Shown: positions 34,519 through 57,568 of the stretch, one piece after another
Layout of the letters: each line of letters begins with the position of its first letter
Position numbering within the stretch: position 1 is the first letter of the stretch
From: Citrobacter gillenii
GTDB taxonomy: Bacteria > Pseudomonadota > Gammaproteobacteria > Enterobacterales > Enterobacteriaceae
NCBI RefSeq assembly: GCF_013337685.1
Contig: NZ_SUQN01000008.1
Location: 186,001-250,000 of the forward strand
Direction: 5' to 3'
Length of the DNA: 64,000 nt
Notes under the pieces: model-generated
What the model was told of the DNA's origin: nothing
Database searches by the model: none
The model's input: only the letters and a program-made list of their open reading frames with translations
Made by a program: the position numbers and the translations under genes

Positions 34519-34849
34519 CGTAACCTCACTTAAATACCATCATTATTTTTATAAACTCGTTAATATATTAACGAACAAAAAACACATTCTTTTAATGTAA
34601 ACATTAATATTCAATGTGGAAAAAAACACATTTTTTAGAATGCATATACATGAGACTTGACTGGCAAATGAATATAATAAAAAATAACCAAAAATAAAAC
34701 ACGATGTGACAAAACATATCTCTGAATAGCTGATTGCAAGCGTCAATTAAGATAATTCATATTTGTTAATTAATATAACGTGTTTGTGAAAATGGATGAT
34801 GGCGACGACAACTGGATGTCATAACCGTGTGATATAAGGCATTCCTGTC
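34519..34849. promoter_or_regulatory. Divergent adhesin/exporter promoter region
   Basis: About 330 AT-rich bases separate the adhesin gene (minus) from the secretion operon (plus). No credible gene lies here. It should contain both promoters and holds the dyad described separately at 34592-34607. Confidence 0.6.
34592..34607. promoter_or_regulatory. Dyad TTAATGT-AA-ACATTAA, candidate operator
   Basis: Perfect 7-bp arms with a two-base centre lie about 75 bases upstream of the adhesin start. The core is identical to that at 17020-17035 in front of the GGDEF-EAL/lapG/lapD operon. Confidence 0.5.
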
Positions 34850-36193
34850 ATGAAGAAGTTTTTCGTTTTTCTGCTTTCATGGTTTTCAATAAATTCCGTG
34901 TATGCAGAAGACTTACACAATACCGTTAAAGACGCATTAGCCAATCACCCTGAAGTTAATGCGGCTATAAATAGTCGCTATTCAGCAGAAAAAGAACTCC
35001 GTGCGGCACAAGGTGGATATTTACCCGCATTGAATTTAAATGCCGAAACCGGGCGTAAAAATATTGATGATGCGACCACCCGTGCCGCAGGCAGCACAAA
35101 CGGGCTGACTCAATCCCCCAATGGCGCGACGCTCAGCCTGGAGCAAAATGTATTTAATGGTTTTGCCACCCATAGCGACGTTGCACGACAAAAAGCGACC
35201 GTTGATTCACGGGCATTTGGCGTGATGAACACCAGCGAAAGCACCGCTTACACGGTAATTCAGGCCTATTTTGATGTGCTGCAGCGCGAGGAGTTTGTTC
35301 GCCTGGCAGAAGATGATCTCGCTAACCACGAGCGCATTTACGACCAGATAAAACTGCGTACCGATCAGGGCGTGGGCCGCTCCGGCGACTTTATGCAAGC
35401 GGAAGCTCGTCTGGCGCAGGCACGGAACAATTTGCTCACCGAGCAAACCAACCTGGAAGACGCGAAGACCACGTTTGTCAGTGTAAGCGGTCAAGATCCT
35501 GAAGGGTTAAGCCTGCCGGAAAGCATTGACGCGCAGCTCCCGACCTCACTTGCCGACGCCAAAAACCGGATGGAAAACAACAACCCGTTACTGAAGTCTG
35601 CCAACGCCGACATCGAAGCCGCACATCAGCAGTATGAAGCGTCAAAATCGACCTTCTACCCGCGTGTCGACGTTGAGCTGTCTCGGGGTATCAGCAATAA
35701 CACCGATACCACCCGCGCGCACACTGAAGAGTGGGAAGCGATGGTAAAGCTGCATTACAACCTGTACCAGGGCGGCAGCGACAAAGCCAACATGGAATCT
35801 CGCGCCTACCTGCATAAACAGGCTCAGGATGTGCGCAATAACACCCTGCGCCAGTTGAATCAGGAGCTGCGCCTGGCGTGGACTGCATTACAAAATGCGC
35901 GCGCCCAGCTGCCGTCGGCGGAAGAATATGCCGACCGAAGCGTGAAAGTTCGCACCGCCTATCAGGACCAATTTAGTCTGGGTGAACGTACGCTGCTGGA
36001 TTTACTCGACAGTGAAAATGAAGTGTTCTCCTCTAAACGTCGTCTGGTTGAATTACGTTACCTGGCCATGACCAGCGGGTATCGAATTAGCGAACGCACC
36101 GGTGAATTAATGAGTATTCTAAAAATCGCACCGCCGCCATCGGGGCAACCTGTAGATACCGCAGCAGGAAATAACCTGCCGGAACTTCATTAA
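34850..36193 (+). CDS. TolC-family outer membrane component of type 1 secretion
   Basis: This 447-residue protein has a signal peptide (MKKFFVFLLSWFS..VYAED) and the duplicated coiled-coil structure of outer membrane efflux proteins. Features include ATLSLEQNVFNGFATHSDVARQ in the first half and MVKLHYNLYQGGSDKANMES in the second, with FSLGERTLLDLLDSENEVF near 390. It corresponds to LapE/BapB. It leads the secretion operon divergent from the adhesin and is probably the dedicated exit channel in which the uncleaved adhesin is retained. AAGG lies about eleven bases before the ATG. Confidence 0.92.
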   Translation: MKKFFVFLLSWFSINSVYAEDLHNTVKDALANHPEVNAAINSRYSAEKELRAAQGGYLPALNLNAETGRKNIDDATTRAAGSTNGLTQSPNGATLSLEQNVFNGFATHSDVARQKATVDSRAFGVMNTSESTAYTVIQAYFDVLQREEFVRLAEDDLANHERIYDQIKLRTDQGVGRSGDFMQAEARLAQARNNLLTEQTNLEDAKTTFVSVSGQDPEGLSLPESIDAQLPTSLADAKNRMENNNPLLKSANADIEAAHQQYEASKSTFYPRVDVELSRGISNNTDTTRAHTEEWEAMVKLHYNLYQGGSDKANMESRAYLHKQAQDVRNNTLRQLNQELRLAWTALQNARAQLPSAEEYADRSVKVRTAYQDQFSLGERTLLDLLDSENEVFSSKRRLVELRYLAMTSGYRISERTGELMSILKIAPPPSGQPVDTAAGNNLPELH

Positions 36194-36256
36194 TCATTAT
36201 TTATACAAATAAACATCTGAGCTGCACACTTATTATTAGCATGCTATTTTTAAGTC

Positions 36257-38473
36257 GTGCAGTCAGAAATGGTTGCTAAAATGAGTGCACAAGCTGAATT
36301 ATTAAATGAAGTCCCGGAGAATTCTGATAGCACAAATTCTCAATATCATGATCCCCGTAGCTATAATGACGACCCTTTATTAGATAGCTTACTCATTCTG
36401 TGTTCTTTGCACGGTAAACCCGCCAGTCGAGCAACATTAAGCAGCGGCCTGCCATTAGAAAACGATCGGCTCACACTGAATATATTCCCCCGTGCCGCTG
36501 CACGCGCCGGTTTAAAAGCCCGGGTGGTGACGCGCGCGCTCGATAAAATCCCCGCCATGTCCCTGCCCGCCGTTCTGTTACTGCGCTCCGGGGGAACCGG
36601 GGTGTTACTGGGCTGGAATGATGACGGTAGCGCCCGCTTTATGCCCAGCGAAAGCGAAGGAGGCGAAATCACCGTCGATGCCACCACGCTTGCGCAGAAC
36701 TATGCCGGCAAGGTAATTTTTGCTCACCCGCGCCACGAATTCGATTTGCAGGCAGAAGCATTTTTACCGCGTACTAAATCCTGGTTTAAAGATACGCTCA
36801 AGCTGTCGCGCTTTCTGTATATGGATGCCGTGCTGGCCAGTCTGCTGATCAACCTGATTGCGCTCGGCACGCCGCTATTTACGATGAACGTCTACGACCG
36901 CGTGGTGCCGAATCAGGCGACGGTAACCCTGTGGGTGCTGGCGGTCGGTATCTGCCTGGCTTTTGTCTTTGATCTGATCTTAAAAATGCTGCGCAGCATC
37001 TGCCTGGATATTGCTGGCAAAAAAAGCGATCTCATTATCTCCTCGACCCTGTTTGAACGCATTATCGGTATGGAGATGAAGGAGCGCCCTGCGCGCGTGG
37101 GCAGCTTCGCGCAAAACATCCACGAGTTTCAGTCGCTGCGCGATTTTCTCTCCTCGCTCACCCTGACCACCATTATTGACCTGCCCTTTACCCTGCTGCT
37201 GCTGGTTGTCATCGGCATTATCGGCGGGGCGCTGGCGTGGATCCCGGTCCTCACGCTGCCGGTTGCGCTGCTGTGCAGCTGGGCATTGCAAAAACCGGTT
37301 AACGCCGCGGTGGAAAAAACCATGAGCCTGGCCAGCGAACGCCAGGCGCTGCTGATTGAAACATTAAGCAGCCTGGATGCCATCAAAGTGAATAATGCTC
37401 AGAGCGAGCGCCAGTATCTGTGGGAGCAAACGCTGGGTAGCCTGAGTCGTCTGGAACTTCGCGTGAAAACCTTGTCCAGCCTGGCAAGCAACCTGACCGG
37501 CTGGTTCCAGCAGATCTCTGGCGTGGTAATGATCATCGTCGGCGTATACATGATAATCGGCGGCAAGCTGAGTATGGGCGGCCTGATCGCCTGCTACATG
37601 CTCAACGGTCGCGCCTTAATGCCGCTGGGCCAGTTAACTGGCCTGATTGCCCGCTATCAACAGGCGAAGCTGACCATCAAAAGTACTGAGAAAATGATGT
37701 CGCTGGCGCAGGAACGCCGGGCGGATGAAACGCCGCTCAAACGTGAACAACTGCAGGGCAGCATAGAATTTCGCGATGTGGACTTCAGCTACCCGGAACA
37801 AAAAAGCCTGTCGCTCAACAAGATCAACCTGACCATTTCGCCCGGTGAGCGTGTAGGCATTATCGGTCGTAGCGGCTCCGGTAAAAGCTCACTGAGTAAA
37901 TTGATCGTTAATTTGTACCCGCCCAGCGCCGGTAACATCCTGATCGACGGTGTCGATGCGCGCCAGCTGGACGTCAACGATCTGCGCCACAGCATCGGCT
38001 ACGTCCCGCAGGACATCCAGTTATTCAGCGGAACGCTGCGCGACAACTTGCTTTGCGGCGCGCGCTATGTCGATGACGAAACTATGCTGCGCGCGGCAGA
38101 ACTTGCGGGAGTGAACGACTTCGCCCGCCTGCACCCTGACGGCTATAACCTGCAGGTCGGCGAGCGTGGCTCGCGGCTTTCTGGCGGGCAACGCCAGGCC
38201 GTCGCGCTCGCACGTGCGTTATTACTCGATCCCCCTTTGCTGCTGCTGGATGAACCCACCAGTTCGATGGACAACACCAGCGAAGAGCAGATCAAACACG
38301 CGCTGGCCCCCTGCATTGCAGGTAAAACGCTATTACTGGTTACTCATCGCGCCTCAATGTTGTCGCTGGTTGACCGCCTGATTATTGTTGATAAAGGACG
38401 CATCATTGCCGACGGCCCGAAAGCGGTCGTGATGGATGCGTTAAAAAAGGGGCAGATAAATGCGTCTCGCTGA
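36257..38473 (+). CDS. Type 1 secretion ABC exporter (permease-ATPase fusion, LapB-like)
   Basis: This 738-residue inner-membrane exporter has an N-terminal C39-like domain (about 30-165) without the catalytic Cys, as in RTX-type adhesin exporters. A six-helix membrane domain follows (about 185-480). The ATPase has Walker A (GRSGSGKSS, about 540), signature LSGGQRQ (about 640), Walker B (LLLLDEPTSSMD) and H-switch VTHR. Three possible starts lie close together (GTG 36257, ATG 36269, ATG 36281), none with a strong ribosome site. The stop lies 14 bases inside the HlyD gene. Confidence 0.92.
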   Translation: MQSEMVAKMSAQAELLNEVPENSDSTNSQYHDPRSYNDDPLLDSLLILCSLHGKPASRATLSSGLPLENDRLTLNIFPRAAARAGLKARVVTRALDKIPAMSLPAVLLLRSGGTGVLLGWNDDGSARFMPSESEGGEITVDATTLAQNYAGKVIFAHPRHEFDLQAEAFLPRTKSWFKDTLKLSRFLYMDAVLASLLINLIALGTPLFTMNVYDRVVPNQATVTLWVLAVGICLAFVFDLILKMLRSICLDIAGKKSDLIISSTLFERIIGMEMKERPARVGSFAQNIHEFQSLRDFLSSLTLTTIIDLPFTLLLLVVIGIIGGALAWIPVLTLPVALLCSWALQKPVNAAVEKTMSLASERQALLIETLSSLDAIKVNNAQSERQYLWEQTLGSLSRLELRVKTLSSLASNLTGWFQQISGVVMIIVGVYMIIGGKLSMGGLIACYMLNGRALMPLGQLTGLIARYQQAKLTIKSTEKMMSLAQERRADETPLKREQLQGSIEFRDVDFSYPEQKSLSLNKINLTISPGERVGIIGRSGSGKSSLSKLIVNLYPPSAGNILIDGVDARQLDVNDLRHSIGYVPQDIQLFSGTLRDNLLCGARYVDDETMLRAAELAGVNDFARLHPDGYNLQVGERGSRLSGGQRQAVALARALLLDPPLLLLDEPTSSMDNTSEEQIKHALAPCIAGKTLLLVTHRASMLSLVDRLIIVDKGRIIADGPKAVVMDALKKGQINASR

Positions 38474-39833
38474 TTTCCTGGCTCGCGCCCGCCGCTCTGT
38501 ACAGCCCTACTTTCGTGCCCGCGATGAAAATCAAACTGACAGTATCAATGACGTCAGCCACGCCATTATTGATGACGCCCCGAGGGTGATTCGCCTGACG
38601 CTGTGGGTGATTCTGGCGTTGGTGCTGCTGGCCTTTGTGTGGGCGGGCTTTGCCAGCATCGACGAAGTGACACGCGGCGAAGGTAAAGCGATCCCCTCGT
38701 CAAAACTGCAAAAGATACAGAACCTGGAAGGCGGGATTGTTACCGAGCTGTACGTGCATGAAGGACAAATCGTTAACGCCGGTACGCCACTGTTGCATCT
38801 CGACGATACCCGTTTTGCCTCTAACGTCGGTGAAACAGAAGCCGATAAACTCGGCCTGCGGGCGAAGGTGGAACGCCTGACGGCAGAGGTTGAAAACCGG
38901 GACTTTGTTATCTCAGAAGAGATAGCCAGCAAAGCACCGGACGTCGCCCGCGGAGAAACAGAACTGTACAACAGCCGTCGCGCGCAATTTCACAACGAAA
39001 TCTCCGGACTTGAAGAGCAGTTGGTACAGAAGAAACAGGAACTGCGCGATGTTGAATCAAAAGAAGATCAGTTTAAGCGCAGTCTCGGGTTAATTCGCCA
39101 GGAAATCAAAATGTCCGAGCCACTGCTTGCCTCCGGGGCGATCTCGAAAGTCGAGCTGCTGCGTCTGCGCCGTACTGAAGTAGAAACCGCCGGGCAGTTA
39201 AATTCTATCAGCCTGACGTTGCCTAAAGTCGCTTCAGAAATAAAAGAGATTGAGAACAAAATTGGCGAAAGTCACGGTCGCTTTCAAAGCGATGCGCTGG
39301 CCCAGTTAAACGAAGCCCGTACCAATCTGAGTAAGGCGCAGGCCAGCGTCAAAGCACTGGAAGACCGCGTGAATCGTACTATGGTCACCTCGCCGGTCCG
39401 CGGTATCGTCCAGCAGGTCATGGTGAATACCATCGGTGGGGTGATTCAACCCGGTAGCGATCTGGTGGAGATCGTCCCGCTTGATGACAAGCTGTTGGTT
39501 GAAGCCAAAATACAACCGCGCGATATTGCCTTCCTTCATCCGGGCCAGCACGCGATGGTGAAATTTACCGCCTACGACTACACCATCTATGGTGGCCTGC
39601 AAGGTGAAGTGGTACAGATAAGCCCGGATACGGTTACGGATAAACAGGGGCGGAGTTTCTATATTGTCCGTTTGCAAACGGATAAAAACTATCTGGGGAC
39701 GAAAGAGCACCCGATGTTGATTATTCCCGGTATGGTGGCCAGCGTCGATATTCTCACCGGTAAGAAGACGATTCTTAGCTATCTACTCAAACCGATTATC
39801 CGCGCACGTGCGGAAGCACTGAGAGAACGTTAA
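38460..39833 (+). CDS. HlyD-family periplasmic adaptor of type 1 secretion (LapC-like)
   Basis: This 457-residue membrane fusion protein has one membrane helix at about 40-62, a split biotinyl-lipoyl domain (GEGKAIPSSKLQKIQNLEGG; PVRGIVQQVMVNTIGGVIQPG), a long coiled coil (about 115-310) and a C-terminal beta-barrel (FTAYDYTIYGGLQGEVVQISPD). It links the ABC exporter to the TolC protein. The ATG overlaps the exporter stop by 14 bases. Confidence 0.92.
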   Translation: MRLADFLARARRSVQPYFRARDENQTDSINDVSHAIIDDAPRVIRLTLWVILALVLLAFVWAGFASIDEVTRGEGKAIPSSKLQKIQNLEGGIVTELYVHEGQIVNAGTPLLHLDDTRFASNVGETEADKLGLRAKVERLTAEVENRDFVISEEIASKAPDVARGETELYNSRRAQFHNEISGLEEQLVQKKQELRDVESKEDQFKRSLGLIRQEIKMSEPLLASGAISKVELLRLRRTEVETAGQLNSISLTLPKVASEIKEIENKIGESHGRFQSDALAQLNEARTNLSKAQASVKALEDRVNRTMVTSPVRGIVQQVMVNTIGGVIQPGSDLVEIVPLDDKLLVEAKIQPRDIAFLHPGQHAMVKFTAYDYTIYGGLQGEVVQISPDTVTDKQGRSFYIVRLQTDKNYLGTKEHPMLIIPGMVASVDILTGKKTILSYLLKPIIRARAEALRER

Positions 39834-42775: not shown

Positions 42776-43186
42776 ATGACTAACAAGACTTCAACAAGAT
42801 GTGCAAAGACGATTTTATTTTTCTATGGTATATCGTTCTTACTTTCATTTTTAGTGGGTGTTTCAAATTTAATACCCGCACATGTTTATATAATTGTTTT
42901 CATTCCATGTTTTGTTGTCTTATGTGGATTCACTTTATTTTTGGGAAGAAGCAAGGTGATGAAGTCCTTGAACGATTCCATTTTATTCTCCTTTGCTCCA
43001 ATAGCAATGTTTAACCCAATTTATGGCTTATTGAACAAAGCTAAAAATATTACTGAAACGATTTCAAATACAGATAAATCACTCATGTTTTTCTATTTAC
43101 TAATTGCTATATGTTCTATTCTTAAAGCCTTAATTTCATTCTATGAATTATACAAAAACCTGACAAACCCCGAACAAAGCAGTTAG
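42776..43186 (+). CDS. Small multipass membrane protein, unknown
   Basis: This 136-residue protein has four hydrophobic segments (about 10-30, 34-54, 68-88, 100-122) and no recognisable domain. It is the first gene in the AT-rich part and stands alone on the plus strand, convergent with two small membrane-protein genes. Not recognised; possibly an accessory or immunity-type membrane protein. Confidence 0.55.
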   Translation: MTNKTSTRCAKTILFFYGISFLLSFLVGVSNLIPAHVYIIVFIPCFVVLCGFTLFLGRSKVMKSLNDSILFSFAPIAMFNPIYGLLNKAKNITETISNTDKSLMFFYLLIAICSILKALISFYELYKNLTNPEQSS

Positions 43187-43757: not shown

Positions 43758-44009
43758 ATGAAAGCTTATACTTTAAAAGAGCATAAAGATTCAGGAGAAC
43801 TTCACCTCTTTGAAGGGGATATGAACCCGGAAGGTTCAGAATATAAGTGTAATTCAGGTTCAAAATCCATATGCAAAAAAATGAACAAATCTGACAATAA
43901 GGGAAACCGATTTGCATGTGCCACCGATCAAGAAGCAAGGGAGAAAATAGCTAAAATAGGAAGAAAAGTTTGTGGGACTTGTGTCAGTCATTTATACGAA
44001 TCCTACTAA
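43758..44009 (+). CDS. Small Cys-containing protein, unknown
   Basis: This 83-residue soluble protein is Lys-rich with Cys residues at about 31, 39, 54, 72 and 75. The CGTC near the C-terminus hints at metal binding or a redox motif. AAAAGGAA lies eight bases before the ATG. It stands alone upstream of the MBL/E2-E1/JAMM operon. No family recognised. Confidence 0.55.
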   Translation: MKAYTLKEHKDSGELHLFEGDMNPEGSEYKCNSGSKSICKKMNKSDNKGNRFACATDQEAREKIAKIGRKVCGTCVSHLYESY

Positions 44010-44257: not shown

Positions 44258-44728
44258 ATGAAACGAATAATCGGTTATCTCTTCACCCTGCTTCTGCTCG
44301 TTGCCCTTGTGTATGCTGGGTTAGTTAAAGGGGATGTGTTCCCTGAATGGATCATGAGCAAGAAGCTGATGATCCGTTGTGGCCTGATAGGAGTGCTTGG
44401 TGGGACCCTTTACTGCCTCCGTGGTGTGTATATAAACAAGTGTGTCAGAAACTGCTGGGATGACCGTTGGCATGTTTGGTATGTGTTGAGACCTGTTGTT
44501 AGTGGTATCTGTGGTGTAGTGGCCTACCTGTTTCTAAAAGCAGGTTTGATAGTGTTAGATGCATCACAAAATGGTAGCGGTGGCGATTATGGATATATGG
44601 CATTTGCCTTCTTTGCTGGCTTGAATGTAGATAAATTCGTTGGCAAAATTGAGGATGTTGGTATGGCTATTTTTGGGATTGAAAAATCTCGCACAGCAAG
44701 ATCGGGTGATAATTCCGATCAGAAATAA
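44258..44728 (+). CDS. Membrane protein opening the MBL/E2-E1/JAMM operon
   Basis: This 156-residue protein has three or four membrane segments (about 5-25, 38-58, 75-98, 112-130) and a charged tail (EKSRTARSGDNSDQK). AGAGGA lies six bases before the ATG. It ends 16 bases before the MBL gene, so it is probably the first gene of the operon. By analogy with CBASS and related systems, a membrane protein in such an operon may be the effector; this is inference. No domain recognised. Confidence 0.65.
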   Translation: MKRIIGYLFTLLLLVALVYAGLVKGDVFPEWIMSKKLMIRCGLIGVLGGTLYCLRGVYINKCVRNCWDDRWHVWYVLRPVVSGICGVVAYLFLKAGLIVLDASQNGSGGDYGYMAFAFFAGLNVDKFVGKIEDVGMAIFGIEKSRTARSGDNSDQK

Positions 44729-44744
44729 TTAACAAGGATATAAT

Positions 44745-45899
44745 ATGTCTGCAAAGATATCATTCTTTCCCGTTGGTAATGGGGATATGACACTCATCCA
44801 AACGGAAGATGGGCAAAATATTTTAATCGATTGTCACATAAGAAAAGGTAAGGAACACCCTGATGTTCTTTCTCAGTTAAAAGAAAAGCTAACTCGTGAT
44901 GAGAATGGTAGATTATTTATCCATCTATTTATTTGGTCTCATCCTGATAAAGATCATTGCTCCGGAATCTCAGAGCACTTCCATTTAGGCAAACCCGAAG
45001 ATTGGAGTGAAAGATCAGATAAAATTTTCATTAATGAAATCTGGTCCAGTCCGATAGTATTTAGACGACACAGTTCACAAAATCATAATTTATGCTCGGA
45101 TGCAAGAGATCTTAATTCGGAAGTAAAAAGAAGAGTTAATCTTTACAAAGAAGAAAAACAGTTAGGTTGTGTAGGTAATCAGGTTTTAGTCTTAGGTGAA
45201 GATGAAAATGGCAAAACTGATGATATCCTTGATATTGTACTGCAACTTGATAATACAACCCGGCTAATTAATGGTTCATACTCATACAATTTTGAGGCTC
45301 ATTTACTTGCACCATCACCCAAAAAAGATTTGGATGAGGATGAAGATAAGTTAGGTAAGAATCATTCAAGTGTAATTATCAATTTTGAGTTAAAAGGTGA
45401 TAATAAAACAGCATTCTTTTTAAGTGGTGGCGATGCAGAAGTAGTTTGTTGGGAAGGTGTCCGTAACCGCCTGTCTAAGAATTTCAACATGTCGTGGCTT
45501 GATTACGATATACTACAAACCCCGCATCATTGCTCTTGGCGATCTTTATCCCATGATAGTTCAAGCGGTAAAGGAGATGAAGCAAAAACATCCGAACTGG
45601 CGATGGAAGTATTCAACCGAGCAAAACAAAATGCTTTCATAATTGCAAGTTCCAACCCTATTGCAGATGATGCGAATGACCCTCCATCATATCGAGCAAA
45701 AAAAGAATACGAACAGATTGTTGATAAAGTAAAAGGTCAATTTTTGTGTGTGTCGGATCATAAAAAGAATGGAGAGAATATTCCGTTAGAGATTGAAATT
45801 TCCGATAACGGTATTAAGAAAATTGCTGCATCTGCATTAGGTATGGCTGAATCATCAAGTGCTGCTGTAAATAGACAAGGTGGTGGTGGTTATGCCTGA
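44745..45899 (+). CDS. ComEC-like metallo-beta-lactamase-fold protein with Gly4 C-terminus
   Basis: This 384-residue soluble protein has the MBL fold of the ComEC/Rec2 group. The metal motif is S65-H66-P-D68-K-D70-H71, with a downstream Ser-rich NHSSVIINF, FFLSGGDAE and TPHHCS (third and fourth ligand regions). It has no ComEC membrane domain. The last residues are NRQGGGGYA, unusual for an enzyme C-terminus and similar in style to a ubiquitin-like or CD-NTase tail that is trimmed and conjugated. The next genes encode the E2-E1 and JAMM enzymes that could do this. MBL proteins next to E1/E2/JAB genes were noted in comparative-genomics work by Iyer, Burroughs and Aravind; the substrate role is my inference. 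Confidence 0.82.
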   Translation: MSAKISFFPVGNGDMTLIQTEDGQNILIDCHIRKGKEHPDVLSQLKEKLTRDENGRLFIHLFIWSHPDKDHCSGISEHFHLGKPEDWSERSDKIFINEIWSSPIVFRRHSSQNHNLCSDARDLNSEVKRRVNLYKEEKQLGCVGNQVLVLGEDENGKTDDILDIVLQLDNTTRLINGSYSYNFEAHLLAPSPKKDLDEDEDKLGKNHSSVIINFELKGDNKTAFFLSGGDAEVVCWEGVRNRLSKNFNMSWLDYDILQTPHHCSWRSLSHDSSSGKGDEAKTSELAMEVFNRAKQNAFIIASSNPIADDANDPPSYRAKKEYEQIVDKVKGQFLCVSDHKKNGENIPLEIEISDNGIKKIAASALGMAESSSAAVNRQGGGGYA

Positions 45900-47766
45900 T
45901 TGTCTTAGTAAAAAGATAGATCAGTTGAGCACAATCCTTGCACCTTATGGTGCAAGGAAGCTTTCTACGAATGAATTATCAAAATTCAACGATAAATATG
46001 TTTGTGCTTGGGAATTAGTAACTGATTTAGAATTTAGTAATGAACCTATTGTATTGCAACTAAGATACAAAACTCTTAGTCAATTTGACATTCCAGATGT
46101 GTTTATTTCCTCACCTAAAATTGATGTTTGCCAACTCCCGCACTTAGAAAAAGATGGCAAGTTATGTGTTTGGCCTGACAGTTATATCATCGATCATAAT
46201 GATATGACCTATGCAGTCGATTTACTTAACGATGCTATACTAATGCTAAGAAAAGGAATAAGTGGAGATTTAAATGAGGATTTTATTGATGAGTTCCAGA
46301 ACTATTGGATTTATCAATGTAATAAAATAGATCGACTTATAAGCCTGTGTGATCTAACAAATAAAAACACAAGGTTGGTTTTCGCTTATCGGACTCGGAA
46401 ATTTGGAGTAATATATTCTGACACACAAAAAGAATTAATTAACTGGTTGGAAAACCAAAAAATATTGCCATTAGAATCGGATGAAAGTAATTCAAAAGAT
46501 AAGAGAATAAGGCAACAGCAACTCTCTAAAATAATTTCAATTCCATTGATATTCTTCAATGAAGCCTGGTATCCGAGTCAGTATCCCAAAACTGCAAGGG
46601 ATTTTTTTGAACTCATAAATCAGCAACAGGAAGATCCAGAAAGCACTATTGAATTGATCTTAAGATCTTGTGCTAATATGTTCAATGTCAAGCCAATAAT
46701 TCTAATTTCATTCCCAACCCATTCAGGGATGAATATTATAGGAATACAGATTCCTAAGGGAGTTAGTGATCTTGCCACTGACCGCTTTGATACCAGAGGT
46801 ATTAGTCGGGGTCGATTCAGAAACACAGCTTTATTAGATGGCTATAGAAATTACATCGATGGAAAGATTTTAAAAAATAGAATAGGCCAAACTAAAACAG
46901 AAAATCTTATAGTAGACCGTTCTGACGATTCTTGGTTAACAGGCCGTGAGCATAACAAAACTTACAAGAAAATCTCAGAACATAAAGTAGCTATCGTCGG
47001 ATGTGGTTCAGTAGGTTCTTCTGTATCAAGACTGTTACTTCAATCAGGCATTAGAAAAATGATGCTTTGGGATGATGATTTAATGAAGAGTGAAAACTCC
47101 TCTCGTCATCTATTAGGATTTGATTCTGTTTATAAAAATAAAGCATTAGCTCTTGCTTCAAGGCTACGGGAAGAGTTTCCAAATGCCTATATAGAAGCTT
47201 TTAATGAAGATTGGACAGAAGATTCCAAGAATAACCAGAAAATTGCAGAAGCCGATATTATAGTAAGCTGCACTGCACATTGGAATACTGAACAGCAGTT
47301 AATTAAAAGACAGTCGGAAGACATTCTTGGTGCTATTGTCTTTGCATTTGTTGAAGCTCATGCAATGGCTGGGCATGTAATAGTCAACCAAGTGGATTCT
47401 AATGCTTTTAATAGCTGGCATATTACAGAAGGTAAATATATAGGTGCATTAAAATATCCTGCTACTTACTGGAAAGAAAATACTCGCAAAAGAATAGCTG
47501 CATGTGCCGGAGAGTTCCAGCCATACGGAGCTATCCCATTGACTAATTTACATGCTCTAACGGCAAGAACAGTAATAGATCTAATCATGGATCGTTTTTC
47601 AAATAAATCTTTTGCATATAGTTACATAGGAAGAGAAGCAGAGCTTTTAGAACTTGGTGGTAACTGGAATGATAAATGGATTGCACAATTCGGAAACCCA
47701 GGAAAGGGTGATTGTATTATACCTTTGATTTTTGAAAATTCTAATTGGGAAAAAAGTGATGCATAA
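45892..47766 (+). CDS. Cap2-like E2-E1 fusion (ubiquitin-transfer-like) enzyme
   Basis: This protein is 624 residues from the ATG at 45892. That start overlaps the MBL stop by eight bases and has the GGTGGTGGTGG codons of the MBL tail as its ribosome site; in-frame GTGs just upstream are possible. The N-terminal E2-like domain (1-140) has candidate catalytic Cys92 in HLEKDGKLCVWPD. A middle linker/adaptor region follows (150-350). The C-terminal ThiF/E1 adenylation domain (360-610) has G370-C-G372-SV-G375, DDD394-396, SRH near 405 and the probable catalytic Cys538 (IAACAGEFQPYG). The layout matches Cap2 of type II CBASS, which ligates the C-terminus of the CD-NTase to targets, yet no CD-NTase is present here. 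Confidence 0.88.
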   Translation: MPDCLSKKIDQLSTILAPYGARKLSTNELSKFNDKYVCAWELVTDLEFSNEPIVLQLRYKTLSQFDIPDVFISSPKIDVCQLPHLEKDGKLCVWPDSYIIDHNDMTYAVDLLNDAILMLRKGISGDLNEDFIDEFQNYWIYQCNKIDRLISLCDLTNKNTRLVFAYRTRKFGVIYSDTQKELINWLENQKILPLESDESNSKDKRIRQQQLSKIISIPLIFFNEAWYPSQYPKTARDFFELINQQQEDPESTIELILRSCANMFNVKPIILISFPTHSGMNIIGIQIPKGVSDLATDRFDTRGISRGRFRNTALLDGYRNYIDGKILKNRIGQTKTENLIVDRSDDSWLTGREHNKTYKKISEHKVAIVGCGSVGSSVSRLLLQSGIRKMMLWDDDLMKSENSSRHLLGFDSVYKNKALALASRLREEFPNAYIEAFNEDWTEDSKNNQKIAEADIIVSCTAHWNTEQQLIKRQSEDILGAIVFAFVEAHAMAGHVIVNQVDSNAFNSWHITEGKYIGALKYPATYWKENTRKRIAACAGEFQPYGAIPLTNLHALTARTVIDLIMDRFSNKSFAYSYIGREAELLELGGNWNDKWIAQFGNPGKGDCIIPLIFENSNWEKSDA

Positions 47767-48241
47767 ATTTCATTGTGCCGAATTAGATTTCAAAATATGC
47801 ATCAGCCAAAGCATAGTAGATGAATTATTTTCTCATCGTCAAACCCACTGTTTTAGTAAAGAATCAGGAGGTATGCTATTTTCCAATAATCTCAATGATT
47901 CTGAGATTGAAATCAATAAAATAACTACACCAGGCTCTACTGACTTGAGGAAAAGAAATTATTTCAAGTTAGATGAGAAAAAAGCCAAAGAAGATATCAT
48001 ATCGTTATTCAAGCAGGGTTTCCACTACTTAGGTGACTGGCATACACATAACGAAGGAATGGCAAGCCCATCAGGAACAGATATCCGCAGTATCCAAGAC
48101 TTATTTATCAAATCAGGTCATACAAGACCTTTTTTTCTCATGCTAATAATCCCAAACAAAGAAAATATTTCACACTGTTATTTATCAGCAGCAGATGGGA
48201 AGATGTTATATAAATTCACATATCAAAAACCAAACAAATAA
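47759..48241 (+). CDS. Cap3-like JAMM (JAB) isopeptidase
   Basis: This protein has 160 residues from the ATG at 47759. A TTG further upstream is less likely. The eight-base overlap (ATGCATAA) repeats the arrangement at the previous junction. The JAMM zinc site is complete: E35 (KESGGMLF), H95 and H97 (GDWHTHNEG), S105 and D108 (SPSGTD). In CBASS, Cap3 removes Cap2-made conjugates; in Bil/Bub pathways the JAB enzyme also trims ubiquitin-like tails to a terminal Gly. Here it could trim Tyr-Ala from the MBL protein's Gly4 tail or reverse its conjugation. Confidence 0.87.
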   Translation: MHKFHCAELDFKICISQSIVDELFSHRQTHCFSKESGGMLFSNNLNDSEIEINKITTPGSTDLRKRNYFKLDEKKAKEDIISLFKQGFHYLGDWHTHNEGMASPSGTDIRSIQDLFIKSGHTRPFFLMLIIPNKENISHCYLSAADGKMLYKFTYQKPNK

Positions 48242-48256
48242 AAAGGTTGTAATTAT

Positions 48257-48649
48257 ATGAATAGCACAAGTAAATCATATCCACGGTGGTTAATCATATT
48301 AATACTGTTATTTATTTTTGCTGGCTTCGTTGTTCTTGGGGTAATAATTAATCATAAGTATCACTCTAATGAAAGCTTATCTAAATATATACTCTTAATT
48401 CCCCCTGCAATTTTGTCATTAGGTTTTTCTGTATTTTATAAAAGATACGAAGTACAAGCTGAGTGGCTATTTTCATTTGCGACAGCTTCGGCTGCGATAA
48501 GTTTATGCGTTGATTCTTTACCTGGTGTCCAAAATGACCTTTTCCCTATATTCCTTCAAAGCGGGTTAGGCTATGCACTTCTCGTAATAATTGCAGCATT
48601 GTCGTTCGCAAAAATAATTTCGGCTTTCGTCAGTAGATTCATAAACTAA
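48257..48649 (+). CDS. Four-helix membrane protein closing the operon
   Basis: This 130-residue protein has four membrane helices (about 10-32, 44-62, 70-88, 100-122) and short loops. It starts 15 bases after the JAMM gene and is followed by a terminator, so it is the last gene of the operon. As a second membrane protein in this conjugation operon it is a candidate effector or anchor. No domain recognised. Confidence 0.62.
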   Translation: MNSTSKSYPRWLIILILLFIFAGFVVLGVIINHKYHSNESLSKYILLIPPAILSLGFSVFYKRYEVQAEWLFSFATASAAISLCVDSLPGVQNDLFPIFLQSGLGYALLVIIAALSFAKIISAFVSRFIN

Positions 48650-49139: not shown

Positions 49140-49532
49140 ATGAGTAATACAATAACGTTATCCTATACAAATGATTTTAAACCAATCAACAATCATATCC
49201 CCTCTGCTCAATCTTTGCGAATACATTGTGTCAGTGTTCGATTTAATAAAGAAGAATTGGCTATTCTCAATAAAAACAGAGGTGACAAAAGCAAAGGCGA
49301 ATGGCTTCGTTTAACTTCCCTTGATAGGCTTCCTCCTGTTGTTCCTGCCATCAATGTCGAAACATGGAAGTCATTGTCTGATATATCCCAAAAGTTAAAC
49401 AGATTAATCAATCATCTGGACACAAAAAGTAGTAATAGTGAATTAACTAAAACAGAGATCTTTGCAGTCAAGAAACAGATCAAAGAGCTTCGTTCGTGCC
49501 TTACAGCTTCTGCTGACCTACCAGCGATGTAA
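49140..49532 (+). CDS. MobC-like relaxosome accessory protein
   Basis: This 130-residue DNA-binding accessory protein resembles plasmid MobC: VSVRFNKEELAILNKNRG, then EWLRLTSLDRLPPVVPAIN, then a helical LSDISQKLNRLINHLD segment. In MobC families these regions form a ribbon-helix-helix and a dimerisation helix that help the relaxase open oriT. AAGGAG lies six bases before the ATG. It is nine bases from the relaxase gene. Confidence 0.8.
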   Translation: MSNTITLSYTNDFKPINNHIPSAQSLRIHCVSVRFNKEELAILNKNRGDKSKGEWLRLTSLDRLPPVVPAINVETWKSLSDISQKLNRLINHLDTKSSNSELTKTEIFAVKKQIKELRSCLTASADLPAM

Positions 49533-49540
49533 GTCGTTAT

Positions 49541-50752
49541 ATGAAGGGAATGCAACGAATTAAAAGACACAAGAATTTCGTTAATGTAGTGAAGTATGTG
49601 TTGAAGCCTGGTTCTCACCATAGAAGCGATCCATTAGTCATAGGTGGCAATATGACTGGTGATTGTGCATATGAACTGATAGCAGAGTTTGACACAGCAA
49701 GTAAGCTTAGAAGTGACATTGCAAAACCGGCCTGGCATAACTCGCTTCGTCTTCCTCATGGAGATAAGCTTTCCAAAGAGCAATGGAAGCTGATAGCTGA
49801 CGATTACATGGCTCAGTTAGGTTTTAGTGACACTCATCTTCGTTGTTATATATTACACGATGACAGTGTGGGTCAGCACATACATATCATTGCTAACCGA
49901 ATAGATTCGGTATCAAGTAAGGTTAACTTAGGTAGACATGAAAGCCTTAAAAGTGGTCGCATAATCCAGGAACTTGAAATCAAATACAGTCTCACTATCA
50001 CAAAAGGCCCTGAACCACTAAAACCTACGGATACTGGAAAAGAAACAAAAAAAGCAAAAAAGATTTCCCGGAATGAAGCAATGTTTGAACAAAGAACAGG
50101 TGAGATCTGCAATAAGCAGCAGTTACAAATGCTCCTTGATAAAACTTTGGCAGATTCACCAGATGTGAAAACTTTCCTAATAAGGCTTGAGGAAGCGAAA
50201 GTTTCATGTACAGCTAACATAGCTACCACTGGGAGAATGAACGGATTTTCTTTCGTATTCAATGGTATTGCATTCAAAGCATCTCAACTTGGCAAAAAGT
50301 ATTCTTGGGTAAATCTTCAAAAGCTCATCGACTACGAGCCTGAACGAGACAACTCACAACTACTTGATACCAGCACAGTTGCTACTGCTACTGCTACTGC
50401 TACTGCTACTGCTACTGCTACTGCTACTGCTACTGCTACTGCTACTGCAAAAGATGTTGCTGCAACGGATATACCAAGGGAAAGCATAAGTGAAAAAATT
50501 GCTGAACTCGAACTTCGACTCAGAGAAGACAGAAGAAACGGAATCGTAGAAAAGATTCTTCAAAAAAATGTTGTACAACGGCAAAAACACTCCAGGCTTA
50601 GTGGCTGGATTCCATTCATAAGAAGGTTCATAGAGCTTCTCAGAAGCTATGGGAAGAGCATTCTTCACAAAACCCATACGACCTTATCAAAAATCCATGC
50701 AATAAAATCGTTAAACAAGTCGATGGAATTTCGTTTATATACAGTAAGTTAA
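49541..50752 (+). CDS. MOBP-type relaxase with Ala-Thr repeat
   Basis: This 403-residue relaxase nicks and pilots DNA in mobilisation. The candidate catalytic Tyr19 lies in VVKYVLKPG. The metal-binding motif III is H106-D-D-S-V-G-Q-H113-I-H115 followed by ANR. The C-terminal third has an Ala-Thr repeat (about residues 281-303) and a basic helical region. It is shorter than many MobA proteins and has no primase or type IV coupling domain. No type IV secretion genes are in the window, so transfer would need a helper. A second ATG at 49550 is a possible start. Confidence 0.85.
   Translation: MKGMQRIKRHKNFVNVVKYVLKPGSHHRSDPLVIGGNMTGDCAYELIAEFDTASKLRSDIAKPAWHNSLRLPHGDKLSKEQWKLIADDYMAQLGFSDTHLRCYILHDDSVGQHIHIIANRIDSVSSKVNLGRHESLKSGRIIQELEIKYSLTITKGPEPLKPTDTGKETKKAKKISRNEAMFEQRTGEICNKQQLQMLLDKTLADSPDVKTFLIRLEEAKVSCTANIATTGRMNGFSFVFNGIAFKASQLGKKYSWVNLQKLIDYEPERDNSQLLDTSTVATATATATATATATATATATATAKDVAATDIPRESISEKIAELELRLREDRRNGIVEKILQKNVVQRQKHSRLSGWIPFIRRFIELLRSYGKSILHKTHTTLSKIHAIKSLNKSMEFRLYTVS
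50381..50446 (+). repeat. Hexanucleotide repeat (GCTACT) x11 in the relaxase gene
   Basis: Eleven perfect tandem copies of GCTACT encode alternating Ala-Thr. Because the unit is six bases, slippage changes length but not frame. The opposite strand reads as poly-Ser, which makes a misleading open frame. Confidence 0.95.
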
Positions 50753-53707: not shown

Positions 53708-54139
53708 TTAAATTAGTTTTCTATCCGACCGGCCCCTGTCTATTGGTGGCAATGGTTCGTCTAAAATATTTTTATTTATGTTGTGTTTATACGCATTATA
53801 CTGCCATATAACGAATTGTTGCTTTAAATTCCTATTTTCTTCTTCAAGCACTCTATTTTTTGACTCCAGGTGAAAAATCCTTTGGGAAGCAATAGCAAGC
53901 GAAGAAGGTTTCTTGAAATTGTTTTGATTGTTTTTTATTCCATTCTTCTTACTTCGAAAGGCTTCGTTTATGTCTTTATGATATGATAAAGATTGTCTAC
54001 TCGGCTTATGATCAAGAAATGTAGAACATTCCTTACAAAGCTCTTCCCAAGTAATGCCTGGTTCACTCCAACCTATTATAGTATTTATAATTAGTACTTT
54101 GTCCTTTTTAGTTAATTTTTTTGACATCATTTTCTCCAT
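53708..54139 (-). CDS. Small coiled-coil protein of the recombinase module (GmtX/TnpC-like)
   Basis: This protein has up to 143 residues; the ribosome site GGAG points to the ATG at 54130 or 54127 as the true start. It has an N-terminal helical region (KLTKKDKVLIINTIIGW..GITWEELCKE), a coiled coil (about 88-112, RIFHLESKNRVLEEENRNLKQQ) and a PLPPIDRGR tail. It overlaps the 654-aa recombinase gene. The position matches TnpC of Tn554-type elements and, as I recall it, GmtX of Gamma-Mobile-Trio islands. A role in recombination complex assembly is inferred. Confidence 0.65.
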   Translation of the reverse strand: MEKMMSKKLTKKDKVLIINTIIGWSEPGITWEELCKECSTFLDHKPSRQSLSYHKDINEAFRSKKNGIKNNQNNFKKPSSLAIASQRIFHLESKNRVLEEENRNLKQQFVIWQYNAYKHNINKNILDEPLPPIDRGRSDRKLI

Positions 54140-56072
54140 TTTTATGTTCCAATAATTTATTTGAATTTATGACTCTTGATAAGTGTGAATAACTTTTGTT
54201 AGCCAATCGAATGAATGAACCGTCAGGCACTTCGTTATTCTCTAAGATACCAATTAACTCCTGTAATCGTTGTTTATTTTTTAAATGGAAAGTTAACCAG
54301 CGATCCTGATCTAATTGGCTATCATTTTCGTCTGAATTTTTTATAGTGATATCTATTAATTTATTAGTATCAATTAATCGCTCTTTAAGTCTTTCAAGAC
54401 TATCAAAATTACCTTTGACACAGATCTGCTCTGAGCAATTCAAACAATCTCTGAATTTTTCACATGGCGATAAAGTATAGTCATGAACACAATATCCAAA
54501 TTCGGTTTTATGAATAGCACCATGATTGATTGATAAAAGAGCTTCTTTCGAAACAGGATCACGAATTGTTATATTTTTAGTAATCAGATAATTAGTATCA
54601 CTACTTTTTAAAGACTCATATTCTTCGAGAACTTCTTCTTCACTGACATGGTTATACACTCGATTTTGTTTTATGCTTGCTCTTCCTGACCATTTAGCTA
54701 ATTCGTATTCGGTCATTCCATTTCGTTGAGCTAATGTATTCAATAAATGTCTCACTTGGTGAGAGTGGAAGTTAATTTTTCTTTCATGCTCTTTTTGATA
54801 TCCATATCGTCTGAAAATATTATCCGAATTTTTGCGAGCTAACACATTAGCCTGAAACAACCTTCTATCAGGATTATAAACCTCTATTATATTATCGGAT
54901 TTATTAGGGTGAAAAGTGTCTTTGAAAAATAAAAACAATAAATTGCTATATTTAATATTCCTTTTTTTATTATACCAAGGAAATCCTTCTGGTAATCTAC
55001 TTTGTAATTCCTCCCACAAGGTTTTCAATGAATAAACATTATTATCATATTTTAGTGATAGTCGCTTTAAGATTTTAACTCCCTCCTTTTCTGATATCAC
55101 TCTATTGTATAATATTTCACACACTTGAATAATCGTAAGTGCTTCGTTTTCTCTATACCTCTTAAATTGAGGCTGATTATGGAATGATTTAAAATCCAAT
55201 TCCATTAACTTGGCAAATCTCCTTGATTCTTTTGTTGCATCTAATATTCTATCTATTGCTTTTTGTGTTATCGCAACCATAACACTCGGAATCCATTTGA
55301 TATCACCACCAAACCCTTTACCGGCCCAAAAACGTAATCCCCATTTCTGATCACCTTTTCTTGTTCTCTGTGTATACATGCAATCAACAGTTAAAGATAG
55401 AACTTCTGAAATTCGAGAAGGTGCAGACATTAGTAAAGCAAAAGTGGAAGTAGTAAAAATGTCCCTAATGTCTGTTAAATCTTGACTGAATATATCAGCA
55501 AATATATACAAGACCTCTTCTTTTATTAGCTTATCACTATGCTTTCCATCATATAGAAAATTATCTCGATTATCTCTTATAGTGCTCTTCCAATTACCGA
55601 TAGCCTTATAGGTGAATGACTTTTCGTGTAAAAACGACACGATCCTTTTCAGTTCTTTGTTTAGGATAAAAACATAATTATTGGAATATTTTCTTTTGAT
55701 AAAGGAAAGTATTTCCTCAAGGATACTGTAATTAACATTGCAAATGTTATCAGAATCTAATTTCTTATCGAGAATGTATTCAAAACACCGTAACGCAGGA
55801 ATTATCACTGACAATCTATGTGGCTCACAAGGATATTCATGAATAACATATGCCTTTGCGAAACAAATAAAAGCAGAATTCATTTTTTCATTATGTTTGG
55901 TTTTTTCGCTCACCTTTGTAAACTTAATTCCTACACGATTAACACACCATTTATCTGAGTCCCAGTCCATCCCCATTTCATAGATTGCCACACATTTCAT
56001 TTCTTCAATAAAAGCACTTAAAGATTCAGATATTTTTTTATTTTTAAGTTCCTCTATATTAATGACACTCAT
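54108..56072 (-). CDS. Large tyrosine recombinase (GmtZ/TnpB-like)
   Basis: This 654-residue tyrosine recombinase carries the catalytic pattern in the C-terminal half: Arg in RISEVLSLTVD (about 217), H-x-x-R in SHQVRHLLN (about 468), and WSGRASIKQNRVYNHVS with the nucleophile Tyr (about 497). After the catalytic core is a Cys-rich zinc-finger-like stretch (CVHDYTLSPCEKFRDC LNCSEQIC, about 550). Its start overlaps the previous recombinase stop by four bases. Consecutive, translationally coupled recombinases are typical of Tn554-like and Gamma-Mobile-Trio modules. Confidence 0.82.
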   Translation of the reverse strand: MSVINIEELKNKKISESLSAFIEEMKCVAIYEMGMDWDSDKWCVNRVGIKFTKVSEKTKHNEKMNSAFICFAKAYVIHEYPCEPHRLSVIIPALRCFEYILDKKLDSDNICNVNYSILEEILSFIKRKYSNNYVFILNKELKRIVSFLHEKSFTYKAIGNWKSTIRDNRDNFLYDGKHSDKLIKEEVLYIFADIFSQDLTDIRDIFTTSTFALLMSAPSRISEVLSLTVDCMYTQRTRKGDQKWGLRFWAGKGFGGDIKWIPSVMVAITQKAIDRILDATKESRRFAKLMELDFKSFHNQPQFKRYRENEALTIIQVCEILYNRVISEKEGVKILKRLSLKYDNNVYSLKTLWEELQSRLPEGFPWYNKKRNIKYSNLLFLFFKDTFHPNKSDNIIEVYNPDRRLFQANVLARKNSDNIFRRYGYQKEHERKINFHSHQVRHLLNTLAQRNGMTEYELAKWSGRASIKQNRVYNHVSEEEVLEEYESLKSSDTNYLITKNITIRDPVSKEALLSINHGAIHKTEFGYCVHDYTLSPCEKFRDCLNCSEQICVKGNFDSLERLKERLIDTNKLIDITIKNSDENDSQLDQDRWLTFHLKNKQRLQELIGILENNEVPDGSFIRLANKSYSHLSRVINSNKLLEHKNGENDVKKIN

Positions 56073-57568
56073 AATAACCTACCCTCTTTTATCAAATCAC
56101 ATTTTTTAATAACCTCACTTACGGCCATTATTGTCCTATCTAATGCTGTTGCTGTTTTAATATCCTCTGTTATTTCTGCAATTCTTGCTCTTTCTTTCAT
56201 AAGGAAATCATAAACATCCTTATGAGGTGCTTCAATCCAGGGTTTAAAGTAAGGGCATGTATAACAAGGTAATGGGATTGGAGCATTACAATCATTACAA
56301 TTAGAACAATTACCAGAATTTATACCTTTATGATTTCTTATTTTTATACCACCTGTATCATTATTAACCAACTCACCCTTGAAAGCATTAACATACTTGG
56401 ATAGGCTTTCAGTCATTACTTCGTCTATTTTATCTGCATGTTCAGGCAGGTTTTTAACATAACAAGCCACAAATTTTGCAGAACGGTGATCCAGTAATTC
56501 TGCTATTGTATTCACCCCATAACCCTCTTGTGCGGCTCTTGTTCCCAAAGAATATCTAAATCGTCTTGCATTGATAGTATCCGCATATTCAAGTGAACCA
56601 AGTTTATTTGCAATTTTTTGTATTTTGCTCGTGATTAGATTAGCTTTTATATGAAGGAAATCGGTCAATAGCATTTGATAAAAACTGTTTTTATTTTGGA
56701 CTTGGGTTAAAGCATTTAAATCAATAAATAGTGGAAGTTCTACTAACTCGTCGTCAGTTAAAGGTCGTTCAAGCTCATGCTCTATAGTATTTATATTCTC
56801 CCTGCTTAATATGACTAACAAATCATTAAGTTCTTCAATAATTTTTAATTTTTTAAATTCCGAACGAAATGACCCACTATGCTTCGCTCTTGGGTATTGC
56901 AATGCAATTTCATTAAAACCATTACCAAATATGCTTAATATGTCTTTTAATTTCAAGTGAGAAGTTTGTATTGGTCTCCTTCCTGTATATGAAGTTACCA
57001 AGGCCATAGTCAATTCAGCAAGCGTAATCTGTCCTCTTTCATATAGAAGCATTGCCCCCTCATTGAAATTAATGATATCATTTTCAGTTAAAGGGCCTTT
57101 CTTTAAATCCATTGCATTCACCATTTCACCAACTCTTCTTTTTTTTGTTCTTCCCTTATACAGGTTTTCCACCTGACATTCGTTTACTCCCGGTAATTCT
57201 AAATAGAGCCATTTTTTAAAAAATATCCTCATGCTTTCAAGGTGATCTGGTCTGCTTATTAATGATCGCTTATGATAATTCCTTACATAAAGATCAGTTA
57301 TGAGTCCATCTTTAGAACTTTTTATAAAATCATTAAAAGCCCAAAACATTTTCTTTGTATATGAACTTGATCTCGTTGTAGCAAAAAAACTTAGAGTATT
57401 CAAAAATGAATCGTGGTGCGATATATGTAATTTCTCAAGAATAAGGATAATGTTTAATCTGATATTTTTATCTAAAATCCAAATGTTATCTGTTATCGAA
57501 AATTTATATCCACTATTTGCAGTTAACAGTTCATAATCTTTCCCCCTATAATTCAATTTATTCGTCAT
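56069..57568 (-). CDS. Second tyrosine recombinase (GmtY-like)
   Basis: This 499-residue protein has the tyrosine recombinase core: first Arg in SYTGRRPIQTSHL (about 193), RRFRYSLGTRAA as the box II region (about 343), and LLDHRSAKFVACYVKN with the candidate nucleophile Tyr (about 376). The C-terminus has a Cys cluster (CSNCNDCNAPIPLPCYTC, about 420-440), again zinc-finger-like. It overlaps both neighbours by 4-11 bases, so the recombinases are made together. Confidence 0.8.
   Translation of the reverse strand: MTNKLNYRGKDYELLTANSGYKFSITDNIWILDKNIRLNIILILEKLHISHHDSFLNTLSFFATTRSSSYTKKMFWAFNDFIKSSKDGLITDLYVRNYHKRSLISRPDHLESMRIFFKKWLYLELPGVNECQVENLYKGRTKKRRVGEMVNAMDLKKGPLTENDIINFNEGAMLLYERGQITLAELTMALVTSYTGRRPIQTSHLKLKDILSIFGNGFNEIALQYPRAKHSGSFRSEFKKLKIIEELNDLLVILSRENINTIEHELERPLTDDELVELPLFIDLNALTQVQNKNSFYQMLLTDFLHIKANLITSKIQKIANKLGSLEYADTINARRFRYSLGTRAAQEGYGVNTIAELLDHRSAKFVACYVKNLPEHADKIDEVMTESLSKYVNAFKGELVNNDTGGIKIRNHKGINSGNCSNCNDCNAPIPLPCYTCPYFKPWIEAPHKDVYDFLMKERARIAEITEDIKTATALDRTIMAVSEVIKKCDLIKEGRLL

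Follow-up and report, generated by a model that had tools for sequence, protein, structure and literature searches.

A 6A-MBL operon variant in Citrobacter gillenii with Cap2/Cap3-like conjugation enzymes and an MBL-fold protein as candidate cargo

Which protein is conjugated by E2-E1 and JAB enzymes resembling Cap2 and Cap3, when the gene beside them encodes an MBL-fold protein in place of a CD-NTase? We addressed this question for an operon in a 64,000-nucleotide stretch of Citrobacter gillenii DNA, referred to as the window. We consider it probable, on comparative sequence evidence, that the operon is a 6A-MBL system equipped with conjugation enzymes of the Cap2/Cap3 kind, and that these enzymes conjugate the MBL protein as their cargo, in the way that Cap2 does with the CD-NTase. 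Loci in which JAB is a separate gene (the window, L008, L009, L083, L086, L087 and L067) are called split, and those of the relatives that carry E2, E1 and JAB in one chain are called fused. The five tightly packed genes described in an earlier note on this DNA were all recovered from the window ORF list, closely spaced and on the + strand, and contain the following features:

44258..44728, + strand: TM1, a 156 aa polytopic membrane protein that accompanies the system in its relatives; putative effector or membrane anchor
44745..45899, + strand: 6A-MBL enzyme with a ComEC-like MBL fold, 384 aa; NF058524 match and metal-site residues; candidate conjugation cargo
45879..45896, + strand: GGGGYA, the MBL C-terminus; proposed adenylation and conjugation site (Ala384), with a tail signature class in 36/36 representatives
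45892..47766, + strand: E2-E1 fusion of Cap2 layout (likely start ATG 45892; ORF 45880..47766 from GTG 45880); matches Prok-E2_B, ThiF and PDLC00836
46165..46167, + strand: E2 catalytic Cys codon (Cys96 from GTG); C in 50/50 rows (4 split, 14 CBASS, 32 fused)
47503..47505, + strand: E1 catalytic Cys codon (Cys542 from GTG); invariant in four split proteins; motif CAGEFQPYG
47732..48241, + strand: JAB/JAMM peptidase, Cap3-like, in a gene of its own; matches Prok-JAB and PDB 9ild, groups with CBASS JABs
48257..48649, + strand: TM2, small membrane protein with two hydrophobic segments; accessory and replaceable

Identity of the operon and its relation to known systems

The MBL protein scored 376.2 bits against the NCBI model NF058524, named "anti-phage 6A-MBL system MBL-fold protein" (cut-off 220), with the match spanning residues 7-356 of 384, and its metal-site residues H66, D68, D70, H71, D230 and H261 were kept in 36/36 divergent relatives. 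The name "6A-MBL" fits row 6a in Table 1 of Iyer, Burroughs and Aravind (2006; PMC1779556), where a triple-module E2-E1-JAB protein is listed with a metallo-beta-lactamase adjoining almost always, while row 6b of that table lists a type with a nucleotidyltransferase. The MBL-E2/E1-JAB neighbourhoods that the earlier note attributed to these authors match this row, and the novelty it claimed for the operon was overstated, since this kind of operon is already known and the MBL passes the 6A-MBL model. The extent of the match also makes it unlikely that a CD-NTase or ubiquitin fold is hidden in the MBL protein, an outcome that would have spoken against the original proposal. No paper on the mechanism of 6A-MBL was found in the literature searched, the coverage of which was incomplete, and an earlier report of MBL conjugation is therefore possible.

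The third ORF matched the Pfam families Prok-E2_B and ThiF, and the fourth matched Prok-JAB with 40.1 bits. The E2 Cys, the GCGSVG loop and the E1 Cys, from which a Cap2 layout had been proposed, were all found; Cys92 and Cys538 in that proposal are counted from ATG 45892 and correspond to Cys96 and Cys542 from GTG 45880. Among the four divergent split E2-E1 proteins, C96, G374, G376, G379, R409 and C542 were invariant. The JAMM peptidase is complete, as had been stated, with E44, H104, H106, S114 and D117 all present, and the window JAB matched PDB entry 9ild ("Peptidase") with an E-value of 1.6e-13. The PADLOC E1-E2 model PDLC00836 gave 345 bits for the window E2-E1, and in a search of 295 genomes it gave 344-385 bits for three split loci as compared to at most 167 for ten other matches. 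The two closest E2-E1 relatives found in genome contigs were from Pectobacterium (95% and 90%).

The E1 tree contained 50 rows (4 split, 14 CBASS and 32 fused), and the four split enzymes plus the 14 CBASS rows were placed opposite the 32 fused rows (100/99). Within their side, the split enzymes were placed among four CBASS rows (97/99), while CBASS as one side was not rejected in an AU test (p-AU 0.135); this weakens the case for a split E1 nested inside CBASS, and the split E1 may instead lie beside Cap2. The identity of the CBASS rows was verified by annotation for L068-L071 and by PADLOC cyclase matches of the upstream genes in L119-L128 (10/10). In a quick JAB tree of 47 rows, the split JABs were likewise grouped with CBASS (SH-aLRT 94), interleaved with L068 and L071. 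The two trees place the E1 and JAB enzymes with Cap2 and Cap3 of type II CBASS, which is consistent with the Cap2/Cap3-like machinery suggested at the outset.

We compared the operon to four kinds of known systems. It resembles the 6A-MBL system in that an MBL over the NF058524 cut-off lies directly before the E2-E1 gene, but differs from it in the separate JAB, in the position of E1 on the CBASS side and in the C-terminus of the MBL, which ends in YA whereas the fused relatives carry a Gly signature. In addition, the window E2-E1 and JAB scored only 71.7 and 42.4 bits against NF058523, the model for fused E2-E1-JAB (cut-off 320), as compared to 74.6 for the CBASS Cap2 of L068 and 598 and 648 for the fused proteins of L003 and L085. 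By these sequence criteria, the operon is best described as a variant of the known 6A-MBL system, with a separate JAB, an E2-E1 below the fused-model cut-off, and E1 and JAB enzymes that group with Cap2 and Cap3.

With type II CBASS, the operon shares an E2-E1 and a separate JAB behind the gene of the candidate cargo, which ends in Ala, although the window JAB, encoded as a separate gene, scored 65.3 bits against the NCBIfam Cap3 model (cut-off 200). The difference is that an MBL enzyme sits where CBASS has its CD-NTase, as the earlier note had observed. No PADLOC cyclase model matched any of the 20 window proteins scanned, which agrees with the reported lack of a CD-NTase, whereas ten comparison loci all matched cyclases. 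Related E2-E1 loci that lack the MBL gene, the other outcome named as a refutation of the original proposal, do exist and are ordinary CBASS with a CD-NTase. Bil and Bub systems contain E1, E2 and JAB components, which the window operon has in common with them; it differs in that E2 and E1 are fused and in that no ubiquitin-like protein was detected. Profile searches of the operon proteins (Pfam, PADLOC, NCBIfam) gave no match to such a protein, again in line with the earlier reading, though a very divergent one may escape profiles. Finally, the window MBL shares its fold with Avs1a, LmuA and RTasMBL (PADLOC E-values of 9e-17 to 1e-8), but scored 38 bits against the NCBIfam Avs1a model with a cut-off of 420, and none of these three is known to have conjugation enzymes.

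The C-terminal tail of the MBL protein

According to Jenson et al. (2023; PMC10097602), the CD-NTase is the cargo of Cap2 and is joined through a C-terminal Gly or Ala; a Gly or Ala end is reported there for CD-NTases whose operons encode both Cap2 and Cap3 in full, but not for those of other operons. In 14/14 CBASS loci, the CD-NTase encoded beside the relative of the window E2-E1 also ended in Gly or Ala, ten of these proteins being confirmed as cyclases. We examined the C-termini of the MBL proteins in 50 loci, five of which were excluded for being interrupted or truncated (a tail signature was also present in four of them, but not in L151), and the 45 intact proteins fell into 36 groups at 70% identity. 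A tail signature was found at most 16 residues from the end in 36/36 representatives, namely YA in 4, RAG in 13, HG in 13 and [YF]G in 6. YA formed the last two residues in 4/4 split representatives and the end in 7/7 split loci. In the 32 fused MBLs, the glycine was terminal in 14 and was followed by 1-8 residues in 18, so that a small residue (Gly/Ala) was the very last one in 18/36 representatives (4 YA, 14 Gly). The stretch preceding the signature varied among the MBLs, while the signature itself was kept.

After 5000 shuffles of each tail, a signature was carried on average by 4.2 and at most by 12 of the representatives, as compared to the 36 observed, with the shuffles ignoring shared descent. 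With RAG, HG, YG and YA fixed beforehand, 9/11 further representatives fitted (1.04 on average and at most 6 in shuffles). L142 and L150, which did not fit, carry FG, and YG was extended to [YF]G only after both had been seen. As a control, only 1/28 other MBL-fold proteins fitted the signature rule, with its glycine well before the end; 23 of these came from 24 loci that score below the cut-off and show no E1-E2 match in the examined stretch, many of the proteins being near-copies of the ComEC type, and five were second MBLs in 6A loci. Of the two roles that the earlier note offered for the MBL, modified or activating factor, the C-terminal data favour the first.

The YA of the split group may be kept by an overlap with the E2-E1 start codon, since its codons (TAT GCN) hold this ATG, at -8, in 4/4 split representatives. 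YA therefore counts little by itself in this group, and the cargo reading leans on the fused group, on the kinship with Cap2 and on CBASS L068, where the cargo has the YA end but no ATG overlaps it. An in-frame start is also contained in the motif codons of L088, L092, L105 and L146, while the other 28/36 signatures have no start-codon overlap.

Tail types in the E1 and MBL-core trees

In the E1 tree, RAG (13) and HG (13) each formed one clade (100/99 and 99/96), and [YF]G occurred in two places. The arrangement was different in the MBL-core tree, from which the tail was excluded (the trees had 36 to 50 rows). Here, RAG occurred in two places, and RAG as one clade was rejected with a p-AU of 0.0105, where the tree groups were named after seeing the trees and the AU p-values take no account of that choice. 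The split MBLs nested with HG and seven RAG rows in a 24-row clade (97/99), which on the E1 data was rejected with a log-likelihood 229 lower (p-AU 9e-52). HG did not form a single clade in the best MBL-core tree, though support for its placement there was weak and either arrangement is possible. In these alignments, the tail type follows the E1 tree and not the MBL-core tree.

The mean identities showed the same conflict. The split MBL cores were 45% identical to the seven RAG rows of the shared clade (RAG7), 45% to HG and 22% to the other RAG rows (RAG6), whereas the split E1 enzymes were 16-17% identical to each fused group and 25% to CBASS. Likewise, the identity between RAG7 and RAG6 was 25% for the MBL core and 33% for E1, as compared to 54% and 22%, respectively, between RAG7 and HG. 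The tree conflict and the mean identities together indicate that modules have been exchanged, with the tail travelling with E1. In the split locus L083 (6001-7155), the MBL core was 77% identical to that of the window over residues 1-330, while the last 54 residues were 100% and the E2-E1 97% identical; this MBL looks as if its core had been swapped by recombination and its tail left identical.

These patterns bear on two other explanations of the tail. YA in the split loci could be a by-product of the E2-E1 start, and the conservation in the fused loci a mark of shared descent in an unimportant tail, as the ATG at -8 in all four split representatives and the in-frame starts of the four fused loci would allow. 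We regard this as highly improbable, however, since most signatures lack the overlap, the residues before the signature vary while the signature persists, RAG is common to MBLs with 25%-identical cores but kindred E1s, and the YA of L068 occurs without an ATG. Alternatively, the MBL would be an effector or signalling enzyme and not the cargo, with the E2-E1 conjugating TM1 or a host or phage protein, and the tail serving as a docking peptide for E1 or E2. The intact active site of the MBL indicates that it acts as an enzyme, and a docking tail would likewise follow the E1 tree. Against this, all four distinct signatures have a small C-terminal Gly or Ala after a short motif, like Cap2 cargo and ubiquitin-like proteins, this residue is the final one in half of the representatives, and no comparable tail is known here in the other operon proteins, TM1 aside; we thus judge the docking explanation to be unlikely and prefer the MBL as cargo.

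Proposed conjugation, membrane partners and surroundings

For the MBL as cargo, the route that we infer from the sequences, including the conjugation itself, its targets, the processing of the tail, a phage trigger, the effector role and the substrate of the MBL, would be as follows. E1 would adenylate the C-terminal Ala384 of the MBL and carry the protein as a thioester on Cys542, from where it would be handed to Cys96 of E2 and attached to targets, and the JAB isopeptidase would remove it from them. In many fused relatives, JAB may in addition remove the 1-8 residues that follow the glycine. Such trimming would be needed in 18/32 fused MBLs, whose glycine is not terminal, and the need for it counts against the cargo reading. 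Attachment, probably in the course of phage infection, would raise or relocate the activity of the MBL, with an outcome probably exerted at the membrane via TM1, or in relatives via other membrane proteins or a patatin lipase. An MBL activity raised or placed by conjugation would be analogous to the case of cGAS, for which conjugation raises cGAMP synthesis according to Jenson et al. (2023; PMC10097602).

We lean slightly towards a broader reading, in which bacterial E1-E2-JAB systems are a general platform that conjugates whole enzymes via a short C-terminal peptide, and in which the 6A MBLs join the CD-NTases as a second class of modifiers without a beta-grasp fold. In many loci the MBL would be made as a precursor that JAB trims, and conjugation modules would have passed between the two kinds of cargo, MBL and CD-NTase, the cargo tail being altered accordingly. 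The window operon would be one case of this exchange. A passage in a 2025 review (PMC12355090) presents Cap2 as the only such system then known to activate a protein without a ubiquitin (beta-grasp) fold, others being perhaps undiscovered. From the tail evidence, the MBLs emerge as a second candidate class with one defined residue, and the same evidence suggests that what these E1 enzymes recognise is the tail and not the fold. Further cargo could be sought among proteins that have a short tail ending in Gly or Ala and are encoded next to E1-E2 genes.

The earlier note had taken both membrane proteins as effectors, of which TM1 stands as a conserved membrane component of the system while TM2 does not appear to be a core part. 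TM1 homologues were found in 7/7 split loci and near several fused loci, on the divergent side in L004, L100 and L136-L138 and downstream in L099. TM1 matched 179 plasmid records (best 49.6%), and by eye, among the matches listed, 19/20 TM1 records were also among 40 MBL records. No Pfam or NCBIfam match was obtained for TM1, and its structure model has four long helices at low confidence (mean pLDDT 67.5). For TM2, which has two hydrophobic segments, a homologue in L008 was used to build a profile; no plasmid match was found at E 0.1, no homologue in L009 or L083, and no such ORF behind JAB in L009. TM2 as a constant part was ruled out on these grounds, and it seems to be replaceable.

The gene directly behind E2-E1-(JAB) encoded a protein other than TM1 with two or more hydrophobic segments in 16 of the 36 representatives (window TM2 included), TM1 in 3, a patatin in 4 and a different product in 4; in the remaining 9, no gene was counted at this place under the rule applied. 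L005 is one of these 9, although a 263 aa protein with hydrophobic stretches is annotated there. The patatin was Pfam-confirmed in L085, L142 and L150 and annotated in L140; these loci, with patatin-like phospholipases, are fused 6A-MBL loci from distant bacteria, including Gluconobacter and Rhodococcus. The CBASS patatin CapV is a membrane-directed effector, and by analogy it is a fair inference that the 6A-MBL effector is directed at the membrane.

Genomes above the NF058524 cut-off numbered 6/295 in the order, 5/369 in the class and 7/398 in the phylum, the source genome being counted in each, and 5/367 in a second class. The fused L004 operon was present in 29/5426 E. coli genomes at 80% or more of its length. 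A tblastn search with the MBL recovered relatives in 249 plasmid records, 141/249 of them on conjugative plasmids. The closest MBL in viral contigs was 80% identical, and three Listeria records were matched among phage records (46% of the query, 29% identity). Four divergent split representatives were found in all; searches of 4 and 12 more genomes of the family for further split loci matched only two already known. An Aeromonas "CobQ" neighbour, considered as a third cargo type, turned out to be a 6A MBL (318 bits), misannotated as "cobalamin biosynthesis protein CobQ" on an Aeromonas plasmid (L067:4791-5975). A Pseudomonas syringae plasmid (L143) carries a 6A-MBL locus in which the MBL, E2-E1 and JAB frames are interrupted.

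The GC content is 0.35-0.38 at 42-50 kb, as compared to about 0.53 or more at 36-40 kb, and the AT-rich stretch also holds a relaxase and integrases. This setting, together with the many relatives on conjugative plasmids, would suit an island function in housekeeping or plasmid transfer rather than in defence. Such a function is nonetheless very unlikely in our view, given the anti-phage name of the NCBI family, a machinery close to CBASS, the patatins and membrane proteins at the effector place, and the restriction genes or WYL regulators near relatives. An anti-phage role is thus the probable one, as judged from the family name, the CBASS kinship and the neighbourhood.

Some further ORFs of the window may be mentioned. 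Upstream of the operon lie a gene for a small membrane protein (42776-43186) and a cysteine-containing ORF of 83 aa (43758-44009), neither with a family match over cut-off. The relaxase lies right behind the operon with a weakly NikA-like partner (49140-50752), and has a long alternating Thr-Ala stretch where its relative in L083 has Ala-Pro. On the - strand at 54108-58772, three consecutive ORFs (654, 499 and 404 aa) match phage integrases, with the scores of the first two falling slightly short of the Pfam cut-off, and are predicted to be an array of three tyrosine recombinases. A minus-strand ORF of 3370 aa at 24406-39833 has no credible Pfam domain stretch and adjoins an outer-membrane efflux protein, an ABC transporter and an HlyD protein; it is perhaps a large secreted adhesin with a type I exporter.
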